Of a stretch of DNA of 64,000 nt, positions 29,179-64,000 are shown one piece after another (position 1 is the stretch's first letter; every line of letters starts with the position of its first letter). The stretch spans positions 1-64,000 of the forward strand of contig NZ_FNLC01000001.1 in NCBI RefSeq assembly GCF_900104065.1. Direction: 5' to 3'. A program made the translations under genes and the position numbers. Below the pieces are notes generated by a model that was given only the letters and a program-made list of their open reading frames with translations, was not told the DNA's origin and searched no databases. The stretch comes from Natronobacterium texcoconense (GTDB lineage Archaea; Halobacteriota; Halobacteria; Halobacteriales; Natrialbaceae).

Positions 29179-29673
29179 TCACTCGTACTCGATTTCGACC
29201 TCGTCGCCGACCGCCATCCCCGTCTCGTTTGCGTACCCACGCGGGACCTCGAGCACGTACTGTGCCTGTCCGGTGTACTGCAGGTCTTCGCCGTCCTCGC
29301 CGGCTTCGGGAGCGCGTGCGTGTTCGATGGTCGTGATTTCGCGGTCGGCGTCGATGAAGACGATGTCGATGTCGAAGTCCATATCGCGCATAACGTACGT
29401 GCGCTCGCTCTCCCTGTCGTGAACGAACAGCATTCCCTCGCCGTCCTCGAGGGAGTCGTGGTCGCTCAACCCGGTGTATCGCTCGTCCCAGGTGTCCGCG
29501 ACTTCGACGTCGACGGCCGCTTTCGGCTCGTCGCTCCCGTCCTCGAGGACGTGGACTTCCGCGCGGTCTTCGCCCCAGGGCGCCGAGACGACACCACCCT
29601 GGACGAGGAAGAATCCGACGAGCAAGACCGCCGCGACGACCAGTAGCGTCTTCCAGACGCGCTCGAGGACCAT
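29179..29673 (-). CDS. DUF192-family exported protein
   Basis: The 164-residue protein has one N-terminal hydrophobic helix (about residues 8-26) and a DUF192 domain with the marks VEVADTWDERYTGLSDHDSL, GMLFVHD and DFDIDIVFIDADREI. The fold is known from small secreted proteins of unknown function. It likely faces outside, anchored by the helix. It lies 61 bp from the tRNA-Val start and is divergent from it. Confidence 0.85.
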   Translation of the reverse strand: MVLERVWKTLLVVAAVLLVGFFLVQGGVVSAPWGEDRAEVHVLEDGSDEPKAAVDVEVADTWDERYTGLSDHDSLEDGEGMLFVHDRESERTYVMRDMDFDIDIVFIDADREITTIEHARAPEAGEDGEDLQYTGQAQYVLEVPRGYANETGMAVGDEVEIEYE

Positions 29674-29688
29674 ACTCGGTCTGCGACG

Positions 29689-29708
29689 CGAGAAAGTAAA
29701 GGTTATTC
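29689..29708 (+). promoter_or_regulatory. Probable promoter of tRNA-Val
   Basis: A purine-rich BRE-like GAGAAAGT followed by an AT-rich AAGGTTATT lies about 26-35 nt before the first base of the tRNA, the expected archaeal TATA/BRE position. Confidence 0.45.
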
Positions 29709-29733
29709 GGACGGGCCGACTTGGTTCGGGTGC

Positions 29734-29807
29734 GGGCTCGTGGTCTAGCTGGTTATGACGCGGCCTTTACAAGGCCGAGGTCGGTGGTTCGAACCCGCCC
29801 GAGCCCA
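29734..29807 (+). tRNA. tRNA-Val (anticodon TAC)
   Basis: A 74-nt cloverleaf: acceptor GGGCTCG/CGAGCCC with discriminator A at 29807, D arm around GTCTAGCTGGTTATGAC, anticodon stem CGGCC/GGCCG with loop TTTACAA giving TAC, and T arm with GGTTCGAAC. No intron and no encoded CCA. Two further exact copies of its last 24 bases lie downstream. Confidence 0.95.
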
Positions 29808-30033
29808 TTTCTCTGGCGAACAACACCGTGAGCCAGAGAAATGTATATGAGCGGCGGTTCGAACTAGACGAGACGCGCGCAACGTAGTGAGCACGTCTCG
29901 GCGTGGTTCGAACCCGCCCGAGCCCACTTCCCCCGCTGCGAGCAAACTCGCGAGCAGCAGGTATGTGGATCGAGGGCGGGTTCTAATCAGAGAGGAGCTT
30001 GCTCCGACCGTGGTTCGAACCCGCCCGAGCCCA
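29807..30033 (+). repeat. tRNA-Val 3'-end copies with GARC/GYGA hairpins
   Basis: The last 24 bases of the tRNA (29784-29807) recur exactly at 29903-29926 and 30010-30033. Between them are hairpins: 29807-29842 (11-bp perfect stem, loop GAACAACACCGTGA), 29869-29900 (loop core CAACGTAGTGA) and 29935-29958 (stem GCTGC/GCAGC, loop GAGCAAACTCGCGA). A partial T-arm copy GGCGGTTCGAAC is at 29853-29864. No open reading frame of note is present in the 443 bp between the tRNA and the next gene. Confidence 0.9.
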
Positions 30034-30250
30034 CTCTACTCGAGCAGCCCGCAGCTTTACCGACGTCTCATCTGTAAGCGAGTCGCCTGAACCGTTTCCA
30101 ACCGCTCGTAACCGCGTCACTCGAGAATCCGTCGAACGTCTCGGACGATAATCCGTCCAGAACAGCCAAAGAATCCCTCCCCCGCTTTCGACTCGAGTCC
30201 GTTGTAATGGATCACTGTCGACCCCGTATTCGCATACGGGTCGGGAGTAG

Positions 30251-30697
30251 TCACTGCTTGAGTCGTGCGACGTTTTCCCGGATCTGGCTGAAGAACCCGT
30301 CCCCGGATTCTGCCTGCAACGCCGAGTGCAGCCTCGAGTTCTCGGGTTCGTCTCTGATGACGACCCGGAGGTACGGCTCGAGTTGTTCGAAATTATCGGA
30401 GAGCACGACGGTGTGGTTCTCCTCGTTGTGGTCGACGACGCCCGCGTCGGCCAGTTTCGGGACGTGGCACTGGACTGATGAGACGTAAACGCTTTTGTAC
30501 TCGTTTTTCGCGACGTCGTCCGGTTCGACGTCGTGTTCCCAGCCGGCGATCTGTTCGGCGAGCGTGGATAGCTCTATCGGGTCCTCTCGGCCCCGCAGCG
30601 CGTAGAGGAGGTATCGCCGACGCCGGTTGGCGAGTAACTCGAGGATGGTGTCGGCCGAGAGTTTTTCCTCCGTTTGACTCGAGGTAAGGGATTCCAT
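30251..30697 (-). CDS. Winged-helix protein (DUF7344-like regulator)
   Basis: The 148-residue protein has an ArsR/DUF7344-like winged helix: LELLANRRRRYLLYAL, ELSTLAEQIAGWE, and a YVSSVQCHVPKLADAGVVDH recognition region with a wing ENHTVVLSDN. This pattern marks a large haloarchaeal family of putative one-component regulators. No sensory domain is obvious. It is flanked by tRNA repeat regions on both sides; its target is unknown. Confidence 0.82.
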   Translation of the reverse strand: MESLTSSQTEEKLSADTILELLANRRRRYLLYALRGREDPIELSTLAEQIAGWEHDVEPDDVAKNEYKSVYVSSVQCHVPKLADAGVVDHNEENHTVVLSDNFEQLEPYLRVVIRDEPENSRLHSALQAESGDGFFSQIRENVARLKQ

Positions 30698-30880
30698 AAC
30701 ACAAGGTTACTTCCCGGAGCGGAAAAGCGTGACTTGAATATCCGTATATCCAACAGGCAGCCGTTAACGCGTGGAGGTACGATGCGTATCCGGTGCATAC
30801 TTCGCCGTTTCTCGCCCGATTGGGCCGCAAACTCGATGAAACGGACGATCGCCGTCACGTCGTTCGATCCTCGTCGCAAT

Positions 30881-30898
30881 TCGAAATCCTTTTTTATA
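30881..30898 (+). promoter_or_regulatory. Promoter of tRNA-Phe (BRE and TATA box)
   Basis: CGAAAT (BRE) is followed by TTTTTTATA ending 22 nt before the tRNA's first base, the standard archaeal spacing for a tRNA promoter. Confidence 0.7.
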
Positions 30899-30920
30899 CG
30901 ATGGACGGAGTGAGAGGTAA

Positions 30921-30994
30921 GCCGCCTTAGCTCAGACTGGGAGAGCACTCGACTGAAGATCGAGCTGTCCCCGGTTCAAATCCGGGAGGCGGCA
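30921..30994 (+). tRNA. tRNA-Phe (anticodon GAA)
   Basis: A 74-nt cloverleaf with acceptor GCCGCCT/AGGCGGC and discriminator A, anticodon stem CTCGA/TCGAG with loop CTGAAGA giving GAA, and T arm CCGGTTCAAATCCGG. No intron. It is followed by a long array of partial copies and hairpins. Confidence 0.95.
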
Positions 30995-31033
30995 TCCGGA
31001 TTCTACACGACTTCCATTCGAGAAGCTTGCCCG

Positions 31034-31313
31034 CTCGAGTGAAGATCGAGCTGTCCCCGTTCCCGCGAGCGAAGCGAGCGGGAAGTCGAAAGACGAGCGC
31101 AGCGAGTCTTTCGGAAGTTCAAATCCGGGAGGCGGCATTTTCCTGCGAACGAAGTGAGCAGTGAAAATGCTCCCGAGCGGATTTGTAATCCTGAAAGTCA
31201 CGCGCAACGAGCGTAGCGAGTGAGCATGTCTTTCTTCGGTTCAAATCCGGGAGGCGGCACTTCTCACCGCGAACAACTCCGTGAGCGGTAAGAATGCGAT
31301 CCGAGAGGCGGCA
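31034..31313 (+). repeat. tRNA-Phe partial copies with GARC/GYGA hairpins
   Basis: The anticodon arm is repeated at 31034-31058 (24 of 25 bases as in 30948-30972). T-arm/acceptor copies ending in GGCGGCA lie at 31117-31137, 31237-31259 and, shortened, 31301-31313. Hairpins: 31060-31084 (TTCCCGC stem, loop GAGCGAAGCGA), 31087-31113 (CGAAAGAC stem, loop GAGCGCAGCGA), 31136-31169 (loop GAACGAAGTGA), an outer stem GAAAG/CTTTC at 31193-31234, and 31261-31294 (loop GAACAACTCCGTGA). The 461 bp between tRNA-Phe and the next gene hold nothing else I recognise except that gene's promoter. Confidence 0.9.
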
Positions 31314-31413
31314 TTGCATTGTTTCTATCCCGGTGAAAACGACTTCCGGGAGCGCGAATAGAATCCCTCCGCGCGGCGTTCAGAGAATCGATCGGAGACG
31401 TTTGGACGGGTTT

Positions 31414-31433
31414 GTGAAAACGTCCTTTATATG
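31414..31433 (+). promoter_or_regulatory. Promoter of the acidic secreted protein gene
   Basis: GTGAAAACG (BRE-like) and CTTTATATG (TATA) end 23 nt before the ATG at 31456, so transcription should begin at or next to the start codon, giving a leaderless mRNA. Confidence 0.7.
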
Positions 31434-31455
31434 GGGAATTGATCCTTAGACCGTG

Positions 31456-32415
31456 ATGATCGCGAAAAAACTACTCACGGCGTTCGTCGTGATGCTGCTG
31501 GTAACGGCCGCTATCTCCCCCGCCGCCGCAGCGAGCGGTGGTGAAGGAGAAGTCTCGGAATCGATCACCGTAACGATCGAAACCGATGAAGAGGAAACCC
31601 TCGTGACGGTCGAACGCGCTGGCTCGGCTGCAGCGGGCGCCGACGTGACGGTATCGCCGCTCGGCACCGAGACGAACGCCGAGGGAAGCTACGAAACCGA
31701 CGCGAACGGGACGGTTTCGATCCCGACGCCCGACGCAGACGCGACCGTGGCCCTCGAGATCGAGACAGAGAACGTATCCGCGACCGGAACGGTGACGCTT
31801 CAGGCATACGACGGCCAGGAGCGGACGATCACCGTCGAACTCGAGGGCGACGCAGCGGTCTCGAGCGAAGTCGAGTCGGGTGAAGACCGTGAAAGCGAGA
31901 GCGACGAAGCTGATGACGAGACCCACGCCGACAACGAGGATGCCGCCGACGAAGCGGACGACGAGACCGACGAGGAGCGTGGTGTCTGGCTGACGGGACT
32001 GTTCTCTTCGGCGCTCGAGTTAGCCGCCGAGACGCCGGTCGTCGACGCCGAAACTGCTTCCGAGATCGGAGGCGAGTTCGCGTCGGGAGCAAACGACGAT
32101 GGTGACGATACCGAGTCCGACCGAGACGAGGGGTCTGCTTCGATCGAGGCGGACGCGAACCTCGACTCGAACGCGAGCGTCGAGAACACGACTGAGGTCG
32201 GCGTCGAGAGCGAAACCGAAGCCGGTGTGTCCATTACGGGCGACGAATCCGATAGCGACGAGACGTCGAACGACTCGTCGGCCTCGGTCGAGGCGAACGC
32301 AAGCGTCGAGTCGAGTACCAGCGTCGAGGACTCGACCGAGACCACTGTCGAGAGCGAAACTGACGGCGAGATCGCTGTCGGTGGGTCGGACGGAGACGAC
32401 GATACCCAAGGCTAA
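31456..32415 (+). CDS. Secreted acidic repeat protein
   Basis: The ATG at 31456 is preferred to an overlapping GTG at 31453. The 319-residue protein has a Sec-type signal peptide (about residues 1-26, cleavage near AAA-SG), a beta-rich domain that looks like a carboxypeptidase-regulatory or Ig-like fold (TNAEGSYETDANGTVSIPTP), and then a long Asp/Glu/Ser/Thr-rich part. Two degenerate tandem units near the C-terminus share the pattern SAS(I/V)EA-A-N/S-S-V-E. No membrane anchor follows the signal, so it is probably released or cell-wall associated. It precedes a related acidic membrane protein gene. Confidence 0.75.
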   Translation: MIAKKLLTAFVVMLLVTAAISPAAAASGGEGEVSESITVTIETDEEETLVTVERAGSAAAGADVTVSPLGTETNAEGSYETDANGTVSIPTPDADATVALEIETENVSATGTVTLQAYDGQERTITVELEGDAAVSSEVESGEDRESESDEADDETHADNEDAADEADDETDEERGVWLTGLFSSALELAAETPVVDAETASEIGGEFASGANDDGDDTESDRDEGSASIEADANLDSNASVENTTEVGVESETEAGVSITGDESDSDETSNDSSASVEANASVESSTSVEDSTETTVESETDGEIAVGGSDGDDDTQG

Positions 32416-32566: not shown

Positions 32567-33880
32567 ATGGACGCGTCGAGTCCGGTCGTCGTGTTGCTGC
32601 TACTGGCAGTCGCGGGACTCGTAGTAGCCGCGCCGGCGAGTGCGGCAGGAACGAGCGGAGATGGTGTGGTTTTCGATAGTGCGGACGGGGACGTAACGAC
32701 TCTCGCGTCTACGGAAACGTTCGACGACGAGACGTCGGCCGACGTCGAAGACGATACGGTTTCGGATTCCGAGGACTCCGACGATACGGTCGCCGATTCC
32801 AACGACTCCAACGACGTGCTCGAGGATTTGGACGGTGACTCGGCAGACACCTCCGAGGACGACACCGACGCCGAGGACGATTTGTTCGAGGACACCGAGA
32901 CGCTCGACGACGTCGACGAGACGATCGAAGAGTCGGACGAGGTCGTCGACGACGTGAACGAAACGGCAGGTAACGCGACTCCTTCGGAGATCATCGCCGA
33001 GACGGGCGTAATCGTCGGAGCGAACGGGACGGTACTCGATGCGGACCTCGAGGCTGACACCGAAGCGCCGACGAACGAGTCGGACGGCGAGACGGCAAGC
33101 GACGACTCGACTGACGACGACTCGGGCGAACCGGCGGCCAACGGGGAGTCGAACGCCGACGATGACGGTGACCTCACCGGCTCGATTCCTGGTGGAGCCG
33201 CGGGTGCAGGTGTCGCGGCCGGCGCGAGTGGACTCGCACTGCTTGCGCGCCGGTTCGGAACCGCCGCGGCGCTCAATTCGAGCCAGGGAGCGGGCGCGAT
33301 CGGATCCACGTTCTCTTCGCTCCTGACAGCGGCTCGTGAGTGGGGCTGGCGGGTATTCGGTCTGTTCGGGTATCAGCGGTTCAGCGACGACGATCCCCTA
33401 GAACACGACGGACGGCGAACGTTGTACGAGTATATCCGGTCTTCACCGGGGTCGTACTTCAGCGAGATCAGCGAAGAGACCGGCGTTCCGCTTCAGTCGG
33501 CACGATACCACCTCCGAATACTCGAGTTCGAGAATCTGGTCGAGAGCGAACGGATCAGGGGACGCCGACGGTACGCTCCCGTCGGGGTCGACTCGGCCGA
33601 ACTCGAGGCGGCGCTGAACGACGACGCGACGGCGGCCGTCCTCCGGACGCTGGCCGACGAGGGACCGGGTTCGGTCAGCGAACTCGCCCAGCGGCTCGGT
33701 CGCGACCCGAGTACGATCAGTCACCACCTGAACCGACTCGAGAACGAGGGGCTGGTCGAACGCGAACGTGAAGGGCGGAGCGTCGTTACCCGACTTCCCG
33801 ACGACGTCGAACGGGCGCTCGACCGACGCGAACCCGCGGAGAGTACGGCCGCTTCCGTGGACATGGCGAGTCGTCCGTGA
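32567..33880 (+). CDS. Membrane-anchored winged-helix protein with acidic ectodomain
   Basis: The 437-residue protein has an N-terminal signal or first helix (residues 6-27), about 175 residues of Asp/Glu/Ser/Thr-rich sequence that should lie outside, a second helix near 206-230 (GGAAGAGVAAGASGLALLA), and a cytosolic part with two winged helices. The first is at about 285-345 (FSEISEETGVPLQSARYHLR) and the second at 355-430 (SELAQRLGRDPSTISHHLNR, wing EREGRSVV). This is a one-component sensor layout, possibly released by proteolysis. Which gene it controls is unknown. Confidence 0.8.
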   Translation: MDASSPVVVLLLLAVAGLVVAAPASAAGTSGDGVVFDSADGDVTTLASTETFDDETSADVEDDTVSDSEDSDDTVADSNDSNDVLEDLDGDSADTSEDDTDAEDDLFEDTETLDDVDETIEESDEVVDDVNETAGNATPSEIIAETGVIVGANGTVLDADLEADTEAPTNESDGETASDDSTDDDSGEPAANGESNADDDGDLTGSIPGGAAGAGVAAGASGLALLARRFGTAAALNSSQGAGAIGSTFSSLLTAAREWGWRVFGLFGYQRFSDDDPLEHDGRRTLYEYIRSSPGSYFSEISEETGVPLQSARYHLRILEFENLVESERIRGRRRYAPVGVDSAELEAALNDDATAAVLRTLADEGPGSVSELAQRLGRDPSTISHHLNRLENEGLVEREREGRSVVTRLPDDVERALDRREPAESTAASVDMASRP

Positions 33881-40868: not shown

Positions 40869-41152
40869 GTCCGGGTGCGAGAATCGAACCCGACTGCGAG
40901 ACTCGCTTCGCTCACGGCTTCGCCGTTCGCATTTTCGAGATCGTAAAGCGATCTCGCACCGCTCGTCTCGCGTGGTTCGATTCTCTGCGGATTCCTGCGG
41001 CTCACGTATTTGTTCGCCGCAGGAAGTCCGGGTGCGAGAATCGAACCACGGTCGATCGCTTCCTTCCTCACTTCGCTCGGAAGACTGCGCTCTCCCTGAT
41101 TCGATTCTCGCCTTCCGGCTTTTCCACTCCTCACTTCGTTCATCGTGAAAAA
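40869..41152 (-). repeat. tRNA-His 3'-end copies with GARC/GYGA hairpins
   Basis: The tRNA 3' end recurs at 41026-41047 (22 bases) and 40869-40892 (24 bases). Hairpins between: 41120-41151 (imperfect, loop core on the tRNA strand GAACGAAGTGA), 41063-41083 (stem CTTCC/GGAAG, loop GAGCGAAGTGA), 40992-41025 (perfect 10-bp stem, loop GAACAAATACGTGA) and 40936-40956 (CGAGATCG stem without the loop motif). A variant GAAC-N9-GTGA occurs at 40912-40928. The region shows no credible gene. Confidence 0.9.
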
Positions 41153-54706: not shown

Positions 54707-54770
54707 GACGGGAGCGCCGAAGCCAGGACTCGAACAGGTGCGAGACGGTCGGCCTCACTTCGTTCGGCCG
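54703..54770 (-). repeat. tRNA-Asn 3'-end copy and GARC/GYGA hairpin
   Basis: The sequence 54703-54735 repeats 54860-54892 with one difference, covering the tRNA 3' end plus 12 bases beyond it. The hairpin 54750-54770 has a perfect CGGCC/GGCCG stem and, on the tRNA strand, the loop GAACGAAGTGA. It overlaps the end of the epimerase gene by four bases. Confidence 0.87.
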
Positions 54771-54871
54771 CGTGCGACTCGCGTGCTCGAGTCTGGCTTG
54801 TTCCGCGCCCGTTATACCAGATCCGTTCGCTCGGAGCTAGCGCTCCTCGCGAGAGTTCGGTAGAACGGGAG

Positions 54872-59727: not shown

Positions 59728-59737
59728 CTCACTTATC

Positions 59738-59831
59738 GCGGGCGCTTCGCATTGCTCAGCGCCCGCTCTTGCGTTCGCGACCTGACGTGCCCAACGCTCG
59801 CTGCGCTCGCGTTGGACTCCGTCAGGACGCT
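59738..59831 (+). repeat. tRNA-Arg 3'-end copy and two GARC/GYGA hairpins
   Basis: The last bases of the tRNA plus two flanking bases (59715-59729) recur exactly at 59817-59831. Hairpins: 59738-59766 (perfect GCGGGCGCT stem, loop TCGCATTGCTC) and 59791-59815 (CCAACGC stem, loop TCGCTGCGCTC). Here the GARC/GYGA motif is on the strand opposite to the tRNA. The copy ends one base before the stop codon of the next gene. Confidence 0.88.
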
Positions 59832-63513: not shown

Positions 63514-63552
63514 CTCGAGTGTGGCCACTCAGGTACGAAAAGCGGGTGAGAG

Positions 63553-64000
63553 GAGTAAGCCCCCTTCTGTTCGTCCCGGCATTCGGCTGAGCGTCCGTGC
63601 CGTTCCGCGGAAACCGCGGGACGTTCGGGCTACCACGGCACGGACTTGCACCGGTGAGGGTTCGCCGTTCCATCGCTCCTCGGCCGTCCGGGTGCAGTCA
63701 ATCGCGCCTGCGTGTTCGACGGCTCGCGCCGTCTCACTTGGTCGCGGTTCTCGCGTCGGAGACGCGTCGAACCGCGCTCGCGATTCGTGGATTCGAACCA
63801 CGAGATATCGACTGCACTCCCTCTGCGGGTTATCTCCCCTTCCTTTCGGTCGGGTTCGCGCGCATCATCGGTCGGGCCGAGACGTGTCGTTTCTGTTCCA
63901 GAGCCAGCGGTCTCCCGCTCCGGACTTGCGCCCGGTCACCTGCCCGAACAGGTGGGGGGACTTTCCTCGCGGGCGTGACACATCCCGAAGGATGAATCAC
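63553..64000 (-). ncRNA. rnpB: RNase P RNA (5' end cut by window edge)
   Basis: Read on the minus strand, the conserved CR-I segment GAGGAAAGTCCCCCC appears near the right edge, AGCGGGAGACCG and ACAGAAA inner elements follow, GGTGCAAGTCCGTGCC is present, and the 3' end has ACAGAAGGGGGCTTAC, the conserved P4/CR-V strand. A CATCC-TTCG-GGATG hairpin at the edge (P3) means the P1/P2 5' strands lie beyond base 64000. It is the catalytic RNA that matures tRNA 5' ends. Confidence 0.9.

Follow-up and report, generated by a model that had tools for sequence, protein, structure and literature searches.

The tRNA-Phe locus

The window analysed here is a stretch of 64,000 nucleotides of the haloarchaeon Natronobacterium texcoconense (contig NZ_FNLC01000001.1, positions 1 to 64,000 of the forward strand). 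It carries on that strand a tRNA-Phe(GAA) gene at 30921-30994, detected by ARAGORN and Rfam, which hosts an array of hairpins and partial copies of itself. The first copy, at 31034-31059, runs from the anticodon arm to base 52 and is identical to 30948-30973 at 25 of 26 positions. Two GARC/GYGA hairpins, recognizable in sequence and fold, occupy 31060-31112 between tRNA positions 52 and 53 of this partial copy: TTCCCGCGAGCGAAGCGAGCGGGAA at 31060-31084 and GAAAGACGAGCGCAGCGAGTCTTTC at 31088-31112. An exact sense copy of tRNA-Phe bases 53-73, GTTCAAATCCGGGAGGCGGCA, then lies at 31117-31137. The same interrupted partial tRNA is present in the congener G003. Further downstream, 31138-31259 holds a canonical unit composed of a hairpin A, an antisense T arm, a hairpin B and a second exact GTTCAAATCCGGGAGGCGGCA copy (31239-31259); it is supported by its fold and by a match of 76.5 bits (E 1.4e-13) to the covariance model R1 introduced below. 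The array ends at 31260-31313 with a decayed distal unit reduced to hairpin A and a 15-nt 3' remnant bearing one mismatch (31299-31313; R1 29.7 bits, E 0.003; fold). The tRNA copies and hairpins had been placed here by an initial annotation of this DNA, and the sequence bears out their positions. Two open reading frames on the same strand were judged by eye: an acidic low-complexity one adjoins the array (31453-32415), and another nearby (32567-33880) has a signal-peptide-like start and an apparent winged-helix regulator domain.

Arrays at the other tRNA genes of the window

All five tRNA genes in the window have an array on their 3' side. The arrays of tRNA-Val, -His, -Asn and -Arg, which the initial annotation had not reported, are comparable to that of tRNA-Phe, which is thus one instance of a general feature. 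Two forward-strand units follow tRNA-Val(TAC). The first (29808-29926; R1 104 bits, E 1.1e-19; fold) comprises hairpin A (29808-29841), the antisense T arm (29853-29864), the hairpin-B core (29865-29905) and an exact sense copy (29906-29926), and the second (29927-30033; R1 65.2 bits, E 4.3e-11; fold) also ends with an exact sense copy. On the reverse strand, tRNA-His is followed by one unit at 41026-41152 (R1 76 bits; fold) and another at 40869-41025 (R1 52.3 bits; fold), and tRNA-Asn by a single unit at 54715-54871 (R1 45.7 bits) which is missing from the congener G001. The hairpin A of this tRNA-Asn unit consists of the native flank and an inverted copy of that flank, and its direct repeat extends about 12 nt beyond the tRNA. 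A decayed unit with an inverted cap hairpin lies behind tRNA-Arg(GCG) on the forward strand (59728-59829); it is recognized by its fold, its R1 match being not significant. Nine occurrences of the cap motif GARCGNAGYGAG were counted in the window, against 0.56 expected, and each is situated on the 3' side of a tRNA, no more than a few hundred bases away; none of 100 shuffles reached nine, and the enrichment is not due to chance. Searching the window with Rfam at gathering scores returned only tRNAs and RNase P, the archaeal RNase P RNA gene lying at 63544-63986 on the reverse strand (116 bits), and nothing credible at E<=5 was found in 29600-31500.

Anatomy of the unit

In the source genome (G000), 34 of the 44 scorable tRNAs are followed by units of a common plan, as detected by regular expressions tuned on that genome; a third unit initially counted at tRNA-Gly(CCC) belongs to the neighbouring tRNA-Asp array and was left out. 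The units have a median length of 121 nt (quartiles 114-136), occur in tandem, are devoid of genes or open reading frames and encode nothing. From 5' to 3', each is made of hairpin A, a spacer, the antisense T-arm copy, hairpin B and, at its end, bases 53-73 of the tRNA in sense orientation. Hairpin A begins at the last base of the tRNA or no more than a few bases from it; it is usually T-rich and carries a conserved GAAC-AA..C-GTGA cap. The antisense copy found in most units, another element beyond the initial annotation, corresponds to the T loop and T stem of the tRNA itself, from base 53 to about base 65; a full-length antisense acceptor copy was rejected as a general rule, identity falling near background beyond about base 65. 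Compared with about 31 T arms, the antisense arm was closest to that of its own tRNA in 28 of 62 units, against 2 expected, a figure to be read as an upper estimate because the units had been pre-selected for some match. Hairpin B displays a G-A tandem and a GNA cap, with the overall pattern GARC-GNA-GYGA. The terminal sense copy ends at the discriminator base and starts at G53: identity with the tRNA drops to 0.59 at base 52 and to 0.23-0.44 at bases 51-48. The suggestion that hairpins sit at a fixed position of the tRNA is borne out by this sharp boundary. The accompanying idea that they are inserted into a duplicate tRNA fits the Phe relic only, which does look like an interrupted partial tRNA; the usual unit lacks the 5' part of the tRNA and contains an antisense T-arm copy and a separate hairpin A.

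Several variations on this plan were observed. An extra pyrimidine in the T loop of the sense copies (GTTCAYAATC for GTTCAAATC) recurs at tRNA-Lys, tRNA-Thr and other unrelated tRNAs and genomes. Inverted cap hairpins (CTCACTTCGTTCG) lie between the copies at two loci behind tRNA-Ala (L124 and L129), and the 3' copy of tRNA-Val forms a tandem repeat of 31-bp period at a Natrarchaeobius locus (L187).

Conservation of the fold and choice of strand

The pairing of the units is conserved beyond their sequence. Sixteen of 20 pairs had changed on both sides in a first alignment. Among 116 model matches from many genera, 17 of 20 pairs were doubly changed and 91.2% of cells were paired, the latter value being somewhat inflated because the alignment was fitted to the structure. 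The covariation score amounted to 0.564 versus 0.211 in shuffles, none of 500 shuffles scored as high, and sliding the partner by one column abolished the signal. Three of the four helices are not derived from the tRNA. Hairpins were counted 150 times on the tRNA strand versus 14 times on the other, and 40 kb of 5' flanks contained only one. Mismatches within stems are G-T in 49 cases versus A-C in 27, and for the pair flanking the T-arm helix the counts are 26 versus 1. These strand data say that it is the tRNA-like strand that folds, as RNA or single-stranded DNA alike. Mutations correcting palindromes could generate covariation without selection, but not an asymmetry between strands. Triloops are of the GNA type in 62 of 76 cases, and a single GNRA was found among 22 tetraloops. 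GNA caps are unusually stable in DNA; the preference hints at single-stranded DNA and proves nothing. Two known motifs were set aside by eye: the G-A tandem lacks the three-nucleotide bulge of a K-turn, and the internal loop is not a bulge-helix-bulge.

The units could be transcribed together with the tRNA as structured 3' trailers acting as terminator, processing guard or small RNA; selection would then keep the fold while copy number drifted by unequal recombination between the 21-bp repeats. The strong covariation, the strand bias and the excess of G-T over A-C mismatches all suit this explanation, as do the presence of units throughout the order and their T-rich first bases, which resemble the T-stretch terminators of Haloferax (PMC7237163). 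Against it, T-rich starts are almost equally common at tRNAs without units, the exact acceptor copy (bases 66-73) takes no part in the pairing of the folded unit, distal units decay, and many tRNAs do without units altogether (25 of 46 in G003 and 26 of 42 in G001 by the same criterion). We regard a functional trailer as unlikely, although it is the foremost of the competing explanations.

Distribution among the Halobacteria

The covariance model R1 was built from 18 units, and its E-values are rough. It returned 42 matches at E<1e-4 in the source genome, 41 of which lie 3' of a tRNA, and the sole exception comes after a displaced tRNA 3' end. On contig C1, 24 of 46 cap motifs fall within 600 nt 3' of tRNAs, a space representing 0.74% of the contig. 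R1 matches were found in 116 of 117 Halobacteria genomes, covering all 45 genera. A phylum-wide draw of 197 genomes yielded 32 positives, all from this one order, and none among the about 164 genomes outside it. In 29 foreign loci that were scanned, the match usually starts at the end of the tRNA, with exceptions such as L130 and L132, where the units come after a displaced tRNA 3' end. Units also occur on plasmids, as exemplified by tRNA-Val(CAC) on the Natronorubrum bangense megaplasmid NZ_CP031306.1. In the negative genome, that of the haloarchaeon G018 (47% GC in the stretches examined), no tRNA copies were found behind the 29 tRNAs examined; the units are thus dispensable, which also speaks against a functional trailer.

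Since tRNA 3' ends are standard attachment sites in archaea (PMC8371274), each copy might be the attachment-site remnant of an integrated virus or plasmid that was later lost. The anticodon-arm copy at 31034-31059 is consistent with this origin and is probably an old attachment-site relic. Displaced tRNA ends point in the same direction: at four loci (L125, L128, L130 and L132) units follow a displaced tRNA 3' end that no tRNA precedes, and we read these ends, with their intact units, as the distal limits of elements that integrated between a tRNA and its array. The arrays at these displaced ends are nevertheless already made of complete units. Scars would, moreover, hardly display so narrow a range of lengths or a conserved, covarying two-hairpin fold, and the units contain no genes. 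Two pattern scans of IMG/VR and a blastn search against phage records returned no match, and viruses were dropped as vehicles of the units. As a general account, attachment scars are already very improbable.

Polarity of the arrays

The arrays are polarized. In 43 arrays of at least two units, edits relative to the tRNA were more numerous in the second sense copy than in the first for 29 arrays, equally numerous for 14 and fewer for none (p 4e-9). Where homologous flanks are followed by different numbers of units, the distal unit is common and the extra unit adjoins the tRNA; the pair L147/L150 is clear in this respect, and L161/L180 and three weaker pairs, which are not independent, agree. 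The tRNA-Val gene, shared by 50 named Natrialbaceae loci, most of them with one to three units, is followed by arrays in which a few hairpin-A types and several hairpin-B types appear in mixed combinations. Over 180 units have copies starting at base 53 with no upstream extension, and the gradual loss series from intact tandem tRNA genes that would have spoken against the insertion idea was not seen.

One locus displays a precise difference among the genomes compared, which represent one per species. In G003, exactly 126 bp, consisting of a unit and its 22/22 exact copy, separate tRNA-Leu(CAG) from a flank which directly follows the tRNA in G000 and G001 with 88-89% identity. This corresponds either to a gain in G003 or to a loss in both other genomes by recombination between repeats; gain is favoured because of the polarity and core sharing, and is not counted as proven. 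A close donor for this fresh unit was sought and none was found. The hairpin-B cores are indeed shared between loci: that of tRNA-Ser(CGA) is identical to that of tRNA-Pro(TGG) over 42 of 42 nt in G001, those of tRNA-Gly(TCC) and tRNA-Arg(CCT) are near-identical in G000, and one core family extends across six isoacceptors. The presence or absence of the 126-bp segment, the polarity and the cores common to several tRNAs make the suggestion that the hairpins are mobile or added at tRNA ends largely right.

Errors of replication or repair offer another origin. Hairpins would cause the nascent strand to fold back, two template switches would leave sense, antisense and sense copies of the tRNA end, and repeat recombination would multiply them without a dedicated recombinase. 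The layout of the unit, with hairpins at the turns, and the tRNA-specificity of the antisense arm are what such events would produce; the tRNA-Asn unit, with its flank-derived hairpin A and its long direct repeat, is the best case for fold-back. However, cores not derived from the tRNA are common to different loci and species, nearly all units have identical boundaries, to the base, and none was found beyond one order although tRNAs are universal. These considerations make an artefact of this kind quite improbable.

A proposed model of site-specific insertion

What is established is the anatomy of the units, their structural constraint, the polarity of the arrays, one locus with a precise presence or absence, the occurrence of common hairpin-B cores at different tRNA loci and a distribution that spans the order. 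On balance, and by a slight inclination, we favour the explanation that the arrays are made of short non-coding units of one family, or 'hairpin cassettes', which insert site-specifically at tRNA gene 3' ends. Each unit would fold as a single strand into two hairpins, and in hairpin B the antisense T-arm copy would pair with the terminal sense copy. Entry of a new unit would take place where the T stem meets the T loop, at about bases 52-54, and would leave the tRNA intact; the old positions 53-73 would be pushed outward as a direct repeat, and arrays would therefore be extended next to the tRNA and decay distally. The first Phe copy is an older partial-tRNA relic with its hairpins at the same 52/53 position; lying between these bases of an otherwise normal partial tRNA, they provide the best case for direct fixed-position insertion. 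By analogy with integron attC sites, units may be gained by strand exchange on the folded strand, catalyzed by a putative recombinase, a route that we infer in preference to fold-back copying or homologous exchange between 21-bp repeats.

Insertion is favoured by the polarity, the tRNA-Leu(CAG) presence or absence, the shared cores, the fold, the bias toward one strand, the dispensability seen in G018 and the spread over the order. Against it, neither an enzyme nor an excised form was found, the units encode nothing, no gain between strains was observed, the precise absence could be a precise loss through 21-bp repeat recombination, and the fresh tRNA-Leu(CAG) unit has no close donor. The weakest point is the tRNA-specificity of the antisense arm, a feature that simple cut-and-paste from a different tRNA fails to explain. 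Three routes might lead to it: loci might exchange cores via the GTTCAAATC/GATTTGAAC sequences, which are near-universal; the arm might arise by fold-back copying; or folded-strand recombination might be followed by correction. More broadly, the Halobacteria might possess a genome-wide system of folded-single-strand site-specific recombination whose attachment sites would be the T arms of tRNAs. It would be the archaeal equivalent of integron cassette arrays and would have operated at the majority of tRNA genes from the order's ancestor onward; this larger proposal is speculative and we would not presently expect it to hold.

Comparison with known systems

The resemblance to integron cassettes and attC sites is manifold: arrays would grow at one end beside a fixed site, where new units would be added, palindromic sites keep their fold rather than their sequence, one strand is used, and a repeated core starts with GTT. 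The integron core consensus is RYYYAAC/GTTRRRY. The units do not conform to it, their core being GTTCRA instead of GTTRRRY and set by the tRNA T loop; in addition, the fixed site is a tRNA T arm and the units have no open reading frame. REP/BIME palindromes and RAYT-mobilised REPINs are likewise short, non-coding, non-autonomous hairpins tolerating G-T in stems. Unlike REPs, which are defined by a GTAG or CGTC tetranucleotide at one hairpin end (PMC3733652), the units have no such tag at their ends, are tied to tRNA 3' ends instead of being dispersed and carry copies of the host tRNA. The attachment sites of tyrosine integrases (SSV, SNJ2 and pNOB8 types) share the direct repeat of the tRNA 3' part up to the last base. 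Between such repeats, however, a median of 121 bp of structured non-coding sequence takes the place of an element body with genes: the units, of about 120 bp, contain neither cargo nor integrase and are distinguished by a conserved two-hairpin fold and an antisense T-arm copy. The MITEs, PATEs and SMRs of Haloquadratum walsbyi are also small non-coding haloarchaeal elements, MITEs having terminal inverted repeats and PATEs near-terminal palindromes without target duplication; as that report describes them, they are not tRNA-specific (PMC3119063). No family among the Rfam covariance models matches the units in the window searched. The units lack the defining features tested for the known families and are in that sense new in kind, a claim that does not concern mechanism.

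Searches of the open-access literature retrieved no description of the units, and a prior account is possible among subscription papers, which lay outside their scope; the consulted portions of four related articles (PMC3119063, PMC7237163, PMC7714728 and PMC3733652) do not mention them.

Biological significance

A structured repeat thus stands at tRNA 3' ends throughout an order of archaea, absent from Rfam and from the open-access accounts searched. It is relevant to the questions of how mobile DNA comes to land at tRNA genes and how invaded tRNA 3' ends stay intact, and it can be directly tested in genetically tractable haloarchaea. In practice, partial tRNA copies behind haloarchaeal tRNA genes should not automatically be taken for provirus scars. 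The units possibly also bear on the origin of folded-strand recombination, as found in integrons.
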